A program made the position numbers and the translations under genes. Below the pieces are notes generated by a model that searched no databases, was not told where the DNA came from, and saw only the letters and a list, made by a program, of their open reading frames with translations. From assembly GCF_013113735.1 (NCBI RefSeq), contig NZ_CP053346.1, positions 4,044,001 through 4,108,000 on the forward strand: a DNA stretch of 64,000 nucleotides, read 5' to 3'. Every line of letters starts with the position of its first letter. The first letter of the stretch is position 1. Source of the DNA: Sphingomonas sp. AP4-R1. GTDB taxonomy: Bacteria; Pseudomonadota; Alphaproteobacteria; Sphingomonadales; Sphingomonadaceae. Shown piece by piece: positions 12,897 to 63,062 of this stretch.

Positions 12897-13038
12897 GTTT
12901 GGGTCCGCCTGATGGCGGAGTGCCGCACCAGCCCACTCCCCCACCCGGCCTCCCAAACAGAGTATCCTAGATGGGAGGCCGGGTGGGGGAGCGGACTGGT
13001 GCGGCACCGAAATGCGCTCTTCCGCGCATTTCTCAAAC
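12897..13038. repeat. Family E composite palindrome, copy 1
   Basis: Three stems in a row: a small hairpin CCGCC-TGAT-GGCGG (12905-12918), a long palindrome at 12920-13007 with arms of about 38 nt differing at few positions around a loop containing TATCCTAG, and a perfect 9 bp hairpin GAAATGCGC-TCTTCC-GCGCATTTC (13009-13032). GTTTGGG (12897) and CTCAAAC (13032-13038) look like terminal inverted repeats. The same structure recurs in reverse orientation at 62926-63062. The stop codon of the TonB receptor lies 4 nt outside the right end. Confidence 0.82.
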
Positions 13039-22602: not shown

Positions 22603-22691
22603 CGTCATCCCGGCCTTGAGCCGGGATCCCGCTTCTTGTTTTTCGGAGCATGACAGAGAGAGCGGGACCCCGGCTCAAGGCCGGGGTGAGG
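22603..22691. repeat. Palindromic repeat, family B, intergenic copy
   Basis: CGTCATCCCGGCCTTGAGCC... at the left and an inverted GGCTCAAGGCCGGGGTGAGG at the right, with GGATCCCGCTTCTT / AGCGGGACCCC as inner pair. It lies downstream of hemA. The copy inside glyS (56379-56463) shares both arms and the GCTTCTT step, which shows the two belong to one family. Confidence 0.8.
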
Positions 22692-56094: not shown

Positions 56095-58569
56095 TCAGCC
56101 CTCGATCCGCGAAAAATCCGCGACCGTGTGGCAGGCGCCCCGCATGCGCGCCAGCAGGCCGAGACGGGCCGCGCGCTTTTCGGGATCGGCATCGTTGACG
56201 ATGACGGCCTCGAAAAAGGCGTCGATCGGCGCGCGCAACGTGGCGAGAGCGGACATGGCGGTTTCATATTCCTCGGCGACGACGGCGGACGCGGCATGCG
56301 CCTCCGCCGTGGCGAGCGCGGCCAGAAGATCGGCTTCCGCCTTTTCGGGCGTGTAGGAAAGCGCGGTGACACCCACCTCGTCATCCCGGCCCCCGAGCCG
56401 GGATCCCGCTTCTTCCTCACTGTCCGCAGACAAGCGGGACCCCGGCTCAAGGCCGGGGTGACGGGAGGTGTTGGCCTCCTCCCACCCTTCCTTGCGGAGA
56501 ATGTTGGCGGCGCGCTTGTAGCCGGCGATCAGATTGCGGCCGTCGTCCGTCTCCACGAACGCCTGCAGCGCCTTCACGCGGGCGAGCAGCCGGACGAGAT
56601 CATCCTCGCCGCCGAGCGCGAACACCGCGTCGATCAGATCGTGGCGAACGCCCGCTTCGCGCTGCTGGACCTTGAGGCGGTCGATGAGGAAAGAAAGAAC
56701 GTCAGACGGGTCAAAATCCTCCAATCTTCCATAAAGGCCGGTAGCCATATCCAGCCGGTCCTGAACTTCGGTGTTCTCAGGAAGATCAACAGATACTGAC
56801 ACCGGCTGAGGGAGCACCCATTCACCAACAGTTTCTGTTTCCATCCCGCTCGCGACCGCTTCAACTTGCTCGCGGGCACGCTGCTGCGCCATTACTTGAC
56901 GACCATGCGTCGACATTATGGTCCGGACCATAAAATCTACTTCATCAGTCCAGACCGCAAAAAGTTCGTTCAATGGCAGCTTAATGCCACTCGTGCCACT
57001 AAGCCCAATTATGCCGAGAGCACTTCGACGTAGCGCGAACGGATCTTTCGAACCCGTAGGGCGCTCTTGAATAAGGAAGAACGCTAGGATCGAGTCCAGC
57101 TTGTCCGCCAAACTCACCGCCACCGTCACCGGGGCTGTGGGGACGTCGTCGCCCTGGCCGACTGGTTTGTAATGGTCGCGGATCGCGTCGGCCACCGCAT
57201 CGGGCAGCCCCTCGGCCCGCGCATAATAGCCGCCCATGATGCCCTGAAGCTCGGGGAATTCGCCGACCATGCCGGTGACGAGATCGGCCTTGCACAGGCG
57301 CGCGGCCTGTTCGGCCATGTCGGCGAGCGCAACCCTATCTCCGTTCGTGCTGAGCGACGTCGAAGCACGGGCTTCAGGGGCAGGCGTTTCGTTCGGAGCA
57401 CGTCCTTCGACTTCGCTCAGGACGAACGGGGTTTGTGGGGCATTACCACCAACGATCCCCTCTTCCACCAGCCAGCGCGCCAGCTTGGCCACGCGCTCCA
57501 CCTTGTCGGCGACGGTGCCGAGCTTTTCGTGGAACACGATCTGGCCGAGCTTCTTCGCCTGATCCTCCAGGCGAACCTTCAGATCCTGCTCCCAGAAGAA
57601 GCGGGCGTCCGAGAGGCGCGCGGCCAGCACCTTGCCGTTGCCGGCGACGATCTGCACGCCGCCATCCACCGCATCGATATTCGCGGTGCAGAGGAAGGCC
57701 GGGGCCAGATTGCCGCCCTCGTCATTCAGCACGAAATATTTCTGGTTGGTGCGCAGCGTGAGCTGGATCACTTCGCGCGGCACTTCGAGGAAGGCCGGAT
57801 CGAAGAAGCCGAGCAAAGGCACCGGCCATTCGGTGAGCCCCGCATTCTCCGCGACCAGGCCCGGATCGGGGATCACGCTGAGGCCATTGGCGGCGGCGAG
57901 CGCGGCGGCGCCCTCCTCGATGATCGTCGCACGCTCGGCGGGATCGACGATCACGTGGCAGAGGCGCAGCTTGTCCGCATAATCGGCGGCGGACCCAATC
58001 GTGATTTCGCCCGGATGGTGGAAGCGGTGGCCGAGCGTGACGGCGCCGCTGGCGACGCCCTCGATTTCGAACGGCACGACAGTCTCGCCCAGCAGCGCGA
58101 CGATGCCCTGCAGCGGGCGCACCCAGCGCAGGCTGGACGAGGAGGCCGAGGCCGTGCCCCAGCGCATCGACTTGGGCCAGGGGAAAGCACGGACGATCGC
58201 GGGGATCGCCTCCGCGATCACGTCCGCCGTTGCGCGGCCGGGCTTGTTCACGATCGCGAACCAGACGCCGTCACGCTCGGTCAGGTCCGCGCGCGTCAGC
58301 CCGGTCTTGCGGAGGAAGCCGTCCAGCGCCTGTTCGGGTGCCGAGGTGCGCGGGCCCTTCGTTTCTTCGGAGACGGCGGCGGTGAAGCTCGGCAGATCAC
58401 GCGCGATCAAGGCGAGGCGGCGCGGCGTGGCGAAGGTCTCGATGCCGGTGGCGGGCAGGCCGGCCTTCTCCATCTCGGCCGCGAACAGGCGCGCGAGATC
58501 GGCGCGCGCCTTGTCCTGCATGCGCGCGGGGATTTCCTCCGATCGGAGTTCGAGCAGGAAATCGGTCAT
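56095..58569 (-). CDS. glyS: Glycyl-tRNA synthetase beta subunit with in-frame insertions
   Basis: An 824-residue beta subunit, against about 690 usual in related organisms. Conserved segments are intact: ELRSEEIPARMQDKARADLARL at the start, TLRTNQKYFVLNDEGGNL, MAEQAARLCKADLVTGMVGEFPELQGIMGGYYA, and DRLKVQQREAGVRHDLIDAVFALGGEDD. The excess comes from three places: about residues 377-410 (a family C palindrome), about 502-627 including a low-G+C stretch with roughly 75 extra residues, and about 700-732 (a family B palindrome). The frame is kept throughout and the C-terminus is normal, so the protein is probably active with extra surface loops. With GlyQ it forms the alpha2beta2 enzyme. Confidence 0.93.
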   Translation of the reverse strand: MTDFLLELRSEEIPARMQDKARADLARLFAAEMEKAGLPATGIETFATPRRLALIARDLPSFTAAVSEETKGPRTSAPEQALDGFLRKTGLTRADLTERDGVWFAIVNKPGRATADVIAEAIPAIVRAFPWPKSMRWGTASASSSSLRWVRPLQGIVALLGETVVPFEIEGVASGAVTLGHRFHHPGEITIGSAADYADKLRLCHVIVDPAERATIIEEGAAALAAANGLSVIPDPGLVAENAGLTEWPVPLLGFFDPAFLEVPREVIQLTLRTNQKYFVLNDEGGNLAPAFLCTANIDAVDGGVQIVAGNGKVLAARLSDARFFWEQDLKVRLEDQAKKLGQIVFHEKLGTVADKVERVAKLARWLVEEGIVGGNAPQTPFVLSEVEGRAPNETPAPEARASTSLSTNGDRVALADMAEQAARLCKADLVTGMVGEFPELQGIMGGYYARAEGLPDAVADAIRDHYKPVGQGDDVPTAPVTVAVSLADKLDSILAFFLIQERPTGSKDPFALRRSALGIIGLSGTSGIKLPLNELFAVWTDEVDFMVRTIMSTHGRQVMAQQRAREQVEAVASGMETETVGEWVLPQPVSVSVDLPENTEVQDRLDMATGLYGRLEDFDPSDVLSFLIDRLKVQQREAGVRHDLIDAVFALGGEDDLVRLLARVKALQAFVETDDGRNLIAGYKRAANILRKEGWEEANTSRHPGLEPGSRLSADSEEEAGSRLGGRDDEVGVTALSYTPEKAEADLLAALATAEAHAASAVVAEEYETAMSALATLRAPIDAFFEAVIVNDADPEKRAARLGLLARMRGACHTVADFSRIEG
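56379..56463. repeat. Palindromic repeat, family B, inside glyS
   Basis: 85 bp with arms CGTCATCCCGG...GAGCCGGGATCCCGC and the inverted GCGGGACCCCGGCTC...CCGGGGTGACG. It is nearly the same as the intergenic copy at 22603-22691 and is read in frame on the minus strand as part of glyS (peptide TSRHPGLEPGSRLS...). Confidence 0.85.
57341..57430. repeat. Palindromic repeat, family C, inside glyS
   Basis: 90 bp: CCGTTCGTGCTGAGCGACGT... and the inverted ...CTTCGACTTCGCTCAGGACGAACGGG. Its right half (from GCACGTCC) is the same over more than 30 bp as the intergenic copy at 61386-61471. Read in frame in glyS (peptide TPFVLSEVEGRAP...). Confidence 0.85.
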
Positions 58570-61385: not shown

Positions 61386-61471
61386 CCCGTTCGTCCTGAG
61401 CCTGTCGAAGGACGGGCTTCAGGCGACGGTGCCTGGGGCACGTCCTTCGACTTCGCTCAGGACGAACGGGG
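61386..61471. repeat. Palindromic repeat, family C, intergenic copy
   Basis: CCCCGTTCGTCCTGAGCCTG ... and the inverted CTTCGACTTCGCTCAGGACG...; near-identical right half to the copy inside glyS. It lies downstream of the barrel gene. Confidence 0.85.
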
Positions 61472-62925: not shown

Positions 62926-63062
62926 AAAATGCGCGGAAGAGCGCATTTTACGTGCGGCACCAGCCCGCTCCCCCACCCGACCTCCCACAGAATATCCTAG
63001 TTGGGAGGTCGGGTGGGGGAGCGGGCTGGTGCCGCTACGCGCCGAATGGCGCGTTCTCAAAC
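62926..63062. repeat. Family E composite palindrome, copy 2
   Basis: Left hairpin AAAATGCGC-GGAAGA-GCGCATTTT (62926-62949), main palindrome 62955-63034 with perfect 33 nt arms and a 14 nt loop containing TATCCTAG, right hairpin ACGCGCC-GAAT-GGCGCGT (63037-63054), then CTCAAAC (63056-63062). The whole unit is the reverse of copy 1 (12897-13038): the GCGCATT hairpin is here on the left and its loop is the complement. Confidence 0.85.

Follow-up and report, generated by a model that had tools for sequence, protein, structure and literature searches.

The glyS gene of Sphingomonas sp. AP4-R1 occupies positions 56095..58569 on the minus strand of the window, the 64,000-nucleotide stretch of DNA analysed here, and encodes the glycyl-tRNA synthetase beta subunit as a single open frame of 824 amino acids. 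GlyS is an essential enzyme that charges tRNA with glycine. The protein matches PF02092 over residues 4-650 as well as DALR_1, and its relatives of known structure include PDB entries 7yse, 8ie2, 7eiv and 7lu4. Two palindromic repeats lie in this frame, both on the minus strand: a family C repeat (57341..57430) encoding residues 380-410, TPFVLSEVEGRAPNETPAPEARASTSLSTNG (31 residues), and a family B repeat (56379..56463), a head-to-head pair of CGTC-tagged hairpins, encoding residues 703-731, RHPGLEPGSRLSADSEEEAGSRLGGRDDE (29 residues). The first-pass annotation had matched these segments to a second copy of each family in the window, at 61386..61471 (C) and 22603..22691 (B), and sequence comparison shows the similarity to be real. 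It had also put the gain at about 30-35 residues with neither stop nor frameshift; the frame is indeed open, and the repeat-encoded residues are slightly fewer. As it had further stated, two different palindromic families are inserted in frame and tolerated by GlyS, and conserved segments resume on either side of both repeats, as seen from the Pfam domain and from comparison with the structural relatives. Three sites of the gene (all on the minus strand) are distinguished below. Site S1 (57319..57465, residues 369-417) is a loop of the HD domain that joins two helices and that, in other genomes, contains different repeats or is empty; site S3 (56281..56493, residues 693-763) is a second loop with recurrent repeats; and site S2 (56707..56973, residues 533-621) is a hypervariable, low-GC neighbour, flanked by both repeats and not itself a repeat.

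On the mRNA-sense strand both repeats fold into long hairpins (B, -65.7 kcal/mol; C, -47.5 kcal/mol). Repeat B resembles the CGTC-tagged REPs of Alphaproteobacteria in its CGTC tags, 8-bp stems and head-to-head pairing, as far as the consulted parts of their description go (PMC3733652). Its stems, ATCCCGGC/GCCGGGAT and ACCCCGGC/GCCGGGGT, have by eye the 8-9 bp that characterize CGTC REPs, and of the unpaired terminal tags that such REPs carry (CGTC, or TGTC/CCTC), CGTC is present at both outer ends. The loops of the glyS copy, CTTGA (5 bases) and CCCCGA (6), compare with 5 bases in the 22603 copy and a CGTC REP standard of 4-5. In both copies two units are opposed with CGTC outermost, forming a head-to-head dimer, the arrangement that prevails among CGTC REPs; the second end of the 22603 copy reads CCTC. 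Repeat C differs from the CGTC REPs in that it has no terminal CGTC tag, its arms starting CCGTTCGT, and it is therefore not classed with them. Rfam matches on the B hairpin (microRNA families, below the gathering score) were taken as chance. Elsewhere in the window, 12920-13007 and 62954-63035, 50 kb apart, hold near-perfect long hairpins with arms of 34-36 nt that belong to another repeat family.

A whole-genome search, which the first-pass annotation had proposed as a check, places both glyS segments in multicopy families. Within the 5.27-Mb genome, family C gave 70 match rows and family B 50 at E<=0.01, with both strands counted as rows and only 40 candidates scored per search; across the whole element, the closest of the other copies reach 92% identity for C and 85% for B. 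The C arm pattern, with up to two mismatches, matched 83+75 times, against 0+0 for a reversed-pattern control. Frame-specific codon scores of the flanks were used to classify 114 copies (69 C, 25 B, and 20 belonging to A, a third family); another C stretch was excluded because its copy lies at the stretch edge. Four of the 114 have coding-like flanks and are read in frame: two in glyS, one in ccmF and one in an ORF without a Pfam match, three genes in all. The 114 are best-scoring or listed matches, hence non-random, and include both glyS copies as queries. A stricter test, applied to 55 of the 114, retained just the two glyS copies as in-frame. The C copy at the ccmF locus (L027, G000:C1:3354359-3354442) lies near the N-terminus in the same reading frame as in glyS, and its ORF carries the Pfam domains CcmF_C and Cytochrom_C_asm; the other C copy (L391, G000:C1:3577350-3578800) is in frame within a 333-aa ORF with no Pfam match. 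A search with PF01797 (RAYT transposase, Y1_Tnp) gave no match in this genome and was positive in 5 of 14 genomes. The repeats are probably mobile; no transposase was identified, and PF01797 is absent.

An AlphaFold2 model built from 56 aligned GlyS has a mean pLDDT of 86.7. The two inserts are its longest low-confidence stretches, with pLDDT <50 at 382-407 and 700-732; shorter stretches below 50 occur at 139-148 and 584-588. Such low model confidence at both repeats is typical of disorder. Helices 353-369 and 408-425 bracket S1 in the model, and comparison with the PDB relatives equates S1 with residues 379-384 of the E. coli beta subunit. It falls within the HD domain, which spans residues 341-540 according to the consulted part of PMC8464048. 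The tRNA contacts of the HD and anticodon domains named in the consulted part of PMC9908026 (439, 473-476, 482, 531 and 585) do not include S1.

GlyS matches were found in 175 of 179 genomes of the sphingomonad family. S1 has at least 25 residues in 64 of 150 sphingomonad GlyS, at most 12 in 71 and an intermediate length in 15, these 150 comprising 147 of the 175 matching genomes and three congeners (G003-G005, all filled). The 28 matching genomes outside the count are low-scoring, so the true filled share is probably somewhat below 64/150. The 150 include 38 listed genomes less L419, which is truncated at a contig end; among these S1 is filled in two, short in 34 and intermediate in one. The other 113 (62 filled) overstate occupancy when taken alone, as they were chosen in tblastn score order, which favours filled loops. 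The set of named strains, the best 80 of 287, is skewed likewise; families, frames and trees draw on it, whereas rates do not. Short S1 sequences typically read like EEGIVKGADPD, and filled ones EEGIV, then the repeat, then LAD. Ortholog alignment, the other check proposed, thus shows the insert residues to be missing from relatives or substituted by other sequences; orthologs uniformly carrying the same residues, the outcome that the first-pass annotation had held to be fatal to its claim, were not found.

The DNA of long S1 segments contains an inverted repeat scoring above all 60 shuffles in 50 of 62 cases, against 2 of 62 upstream controls from the same gene; the remaining 12, including that of the nearest congener, G002, have no significant palindrome by this measure. 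At S3 the palindrome excess is smaller (24/113 vs 9/113 controls). Among six congeners, S1 holds other palindromic repeats in G003, G004 and G005, a repeat-like segment from a different family, its palindrome now below significance, in G002, and a C-like copy in G006 (score 50 in reverse complement, 33 direct). G001 has a short S1, but another repeat in S3. An 85-residue S1 in a Sphingorhabdus sp. WA123a MAG (L259) contains two different palindromic peptides in tandem. A long S1 was found in none of the 50 GlyS read from outside the family (30 best-scoring and 20 picked as longest, split or partial), 49 having at most 12 residues and one 13; the 97 full-length GlyS matches outside the family span 620-736 residues, spans that could mask a short insert. 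Two other synthetase genes, AlaS and PheT, served as controls, a number that does not set the rank of GlyS among all genes. AlaS matched in 116 of 119 genomes, 114 of the matches spanning 2559-2601 nt and the exceptions being a split match in G008 and a contig-end fragment in G120. The split AlaS match (G008:C1:1361307-1363085) is in two pieces within a 611-aa frame, unlike the 114 full-span matches. For PheT, the match is split by 78-150 nt within one frame in 5 of 117 matching genomes (G044, G073, G120, G113 and G029), so that PheT may have occasional in-frame inserts, far rarer than those of GlyS.

As judged from their sequences, the long inserts are mostly palindromic repeats, which belong to many families and differ even between congeners. 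At a score of 40, single linkage placed 89 of 93 long inserts in two similarity groups (the top of 1500 shuffled comparisons was 33), and average linkage divided the 93 inserts, drawn from 181 distinct GlyS, into 16 loose or 31 fine families. Counting both strands and separate arms each as rows, the G084 insert used as query gave 25 rows in its own genome, 26 in G133, 22 in G058, 17 in G128 and 10 in G169, and the G033 insert gave 82 in G033; neither had any row in G001, whose S1 is empty. In the 113-genome set, S1 is filled in both members of 27 congeneric pairs (15 in the genus of AP4-R1), and at the score chosen 5 of these pairs have a family in common, while 22 do not; a further 24 pairs are filled versus empty and 5 are empty in both. 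A GlyS tree of 196 rows, computed with the variable sites excluded, requires no fewer than 49 changes between filled and empty, compared with 58-74 after shuffling, which indicates some kinship signal and means that not every filled loop is a separate event. When families are counted, the changes number 84 over 194 rows (shuffled mean 89.9). Across 24 similar insert pairs, which were selected for similarity and have shared members, dN/dS is 0.69 in the inserts vs 0.18 in the flanks, and in 23 of the 24 the insert has a lower dS than its flanks; this pattern would be a sign of young inserts under weak protein constraint only. Different repeats appear to have come and gone many times at the same GlyS loop.

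Occupancy of the loop is associated with the repeat load of the genome. The exact CGTC-REP pattern was counted in 179 genomes, with a reversed-pattern control of 0 in all rows. The median is 9 in 61 S1-filled genomes and 0 in 71 S1-empty ones, and at least four CGTC REPs are present in 44/61 filled vs 17/71 empty genomes (odds ratio 8.2; Fisher p=3e-8, uncorrected for kinship). Given the 17 empty genomes with at least four CGTC REPs, load alone does not decide occupancy.

The first-pass annotation had argued that the presence of two families in one essential gene suggests selection for this reading frame. The argument is weak, as many frames are open: a mean of 3.3 of 6 frames per copy in 30 C copies and 2.4 of 6 in 25 B copies of the own genome, and 2.9 of 5 alternative frames in the 93 inserts. 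Openness by itself is therefore no evidence of selection. The conclusion nevertheless holds, on the grounds of a frame test across relatives. At S1 this covered 92 inserts in 34 similarity clusters, the 93rd insert lacking any alternative open frame. Compared with the other open frames, the used frame has a lower net charge and fewer hydrophobic residues in 34/34 clusters, fewer C/F/W/Y in 33/34 and fewer K/R in 32/34, and more D/E in 28/34 and more Gly in 25/34. At S3, among 31 palindromic inserts (several alike), charge is lower in 30/31 and hydrophobicity in 29/31. The idea that any open frame is acceptable is ruled out by these comparisons at both sites, and the difference between used and unused open frames implies that the translated peptide is under selection. 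Most simply, insertions that make an enzyme that binds tRNA sticky or basic would be filtered out. The filtering may act at insertion or through later change, and the frame bias shows that the peptide is filtered, not that the insert is useful.

The glyS segments are probably multicopy palindromic repeats (B a CGTC REP pair, C a member of a second family) that landed in two flexible loops and are read in frame, as near-neutral passengers shaped by insertion pressure, permissive loops and a purifying frame filter. Their multicopy origin, open reading, absence or replacement in orthologs, recurrence, low model confidence, association with repeat load and non-random frame all contribute to this reading. 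Each event would be the insertion of a repeat into the loop; purifying selection would then keep those lengths that preserve the frame and the frame that yields an acidic, hydrophilic, disordered peptide; and partial or full deletion would empty the loop, into which the next element could enter. The loops would thus be permissive rather than functional, and the elements close to neutral as protein passengers. Benefit to the host would form no part of this reading, which favours permissive loops. However, around two fifths of the loops are occupied, more than tolerance alone would suggest, which weighs against this reading.

The high occupancy (64/150) speaks instead for an account in which the occupied loop is useful: a hairpin midway along the glyS mRNA, or else the acidic linker, would tune translation, folding or the release of tRNA, any palindrome would serve provided that its frame is right, and families would replace each other. 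The long folds of the mRNA strand of both inserts (-65.7 kcal/mol for B, -47.5 for C) and the consistently acidic net charge are in keeping with such a role. This account is quite improbable, as the loop is short in 71/150 GlyS, including that of congener G001, none of the 50 GlyS outside the family has a long S1, dN/dS of the inserts is near 0.7 and occupancy tracks repeat load. The GlyS loop might also be a protein-level safe harbour actively used by this family, in which occupied loops have an advantage, owing to either the mRNA hairpin or the acidic linker, and elements compete and replace each other in the acidic, disordered frame; we regard this as unlikely. If the mobilising enzyme preferred the loops as a target, glyS would be hit more often than other genes regardless of tolerance, and two of the four in-frame copies among the 114 examined are indeed in glyS, though both were queries; several families also use S1 and S3 alike. 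Yet families of unrelated sequence at the same loops are not predicted by a single specificity, the own genome has no RAYT family transposase, and disorder explains the sites without any specificity, which makes target preference very unlikely. Finally, the Pro/Gly/Ser/Ala-rich composition would suit ordinary fast-evolving GlyS linkers that are repeat-like by GC bias. This view has almost nothing in its favour against other genomic copies whose identity along the full element reaches 92% (C) and 85% (B), relatives' inserts that are multicopy too, and palindromes exceeding shuffles in 50/62 segments vs 2/62 controls; as the identity of the two window segments, it is refuted by the genomic copies and the palindrome test.

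Rickettsia has palindromic elements that enter proteins, mostly at surface loops. They were reportedly described by Ogata et al. (2000, 2002). Like the glyS inserts, they are palindromes translated in frame inside otherwise normal proteins, and nearly half of those first reported are in unrelated ORFs, according to the consulted part of a review (PMC10969869). A large share of in-frame copies across many unrelated genes was not found here: only 4/114 copies occupy genes in frame, glyS holding two of the four, and the hot spot is met again across the whole family. The first-pass annotation took such insertions to be undescribed in sphingomonads; this does not stand, as intragenic REPs had been published, including in tRNA synthetases of X. 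oryzae, E. lithoralis and S. alaskensis, as given in the covered parts of that report (Di Nocera, De Gregorio and Rocco, 2013; PMC3733652). Neither glyS nor glycyl occurs as a word in its main text, the supplement of target genes lying outside that check; that many families recur at two loops of GlyS and that the frame is biased are features seen here and not in its parts covered. In recB, according to the same parts, X. campestris and X. oryzae have REPs that differ but lie at about the same position, as at S1; the recB case concerns two species, whereas S1 is filled in 64/150 genomes by many repeat families (PMC3733652). For the CGTC REPs, too, no dedicated transposase was found, according to the consulted parts (PMC3733652), and in this they resemble the repeats of AP4-R1, whose genome lacks a RAYT family transposase. 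The RAYT tyrosine transposase that marks RAYT-associated (GTAG) REPs is likewise missing, PF01797 having no match in the own genome. Already published, to the extent that these sources were covered, are intragenic REPs in sphingomonad tRNA synthetases (PMC3733652) and protein-coding Rickettsia palindromes (PMC10969869). No title or abstract on repeats in sphingomonad GlyS was found in the literature searched, the supplements of PMC3733652 being outside its scope, and, as far as searches show, three features are new: repeats recurring across the family at two loops of GlyS, the replacement of one repeat family by another, and the frame rule. The loop offers a natural repeated experiment on selfish DNA becoming protein: its state has changed dozens of times, many element families are involved, and the survival of frames follows a rule that can be measured.

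Site S2 (window 56707-56973; also L086-L206, L317-L346 and L453-L472) ranges from 2 to 103 aa in 113 genomes. A database search with the segment found only the GlyS of the own genome; long S2 segments, up to 108 aa, also occur in some GlyS outside the family. In the 53 genomes with at least 40 aa, its GC content is 0.51 vs 0.654 for the rest of the gene and is lower in 52/53. AlphaFold2 predicts mostly a confident helical hairpin, not disorder. From sequence and model together, S2 is best taken as separate from the repeats, a hypervariable, low-GC, probably folded segment. Only 5 of 1378 S2 pairs are similar; that of AP4-R1 resembles S2 of G173, a member of another genus, and differs from that of the nearest congener. 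S2 resembles a module that has been swapped, or that diversifies rapidly, within an essential synthetase.
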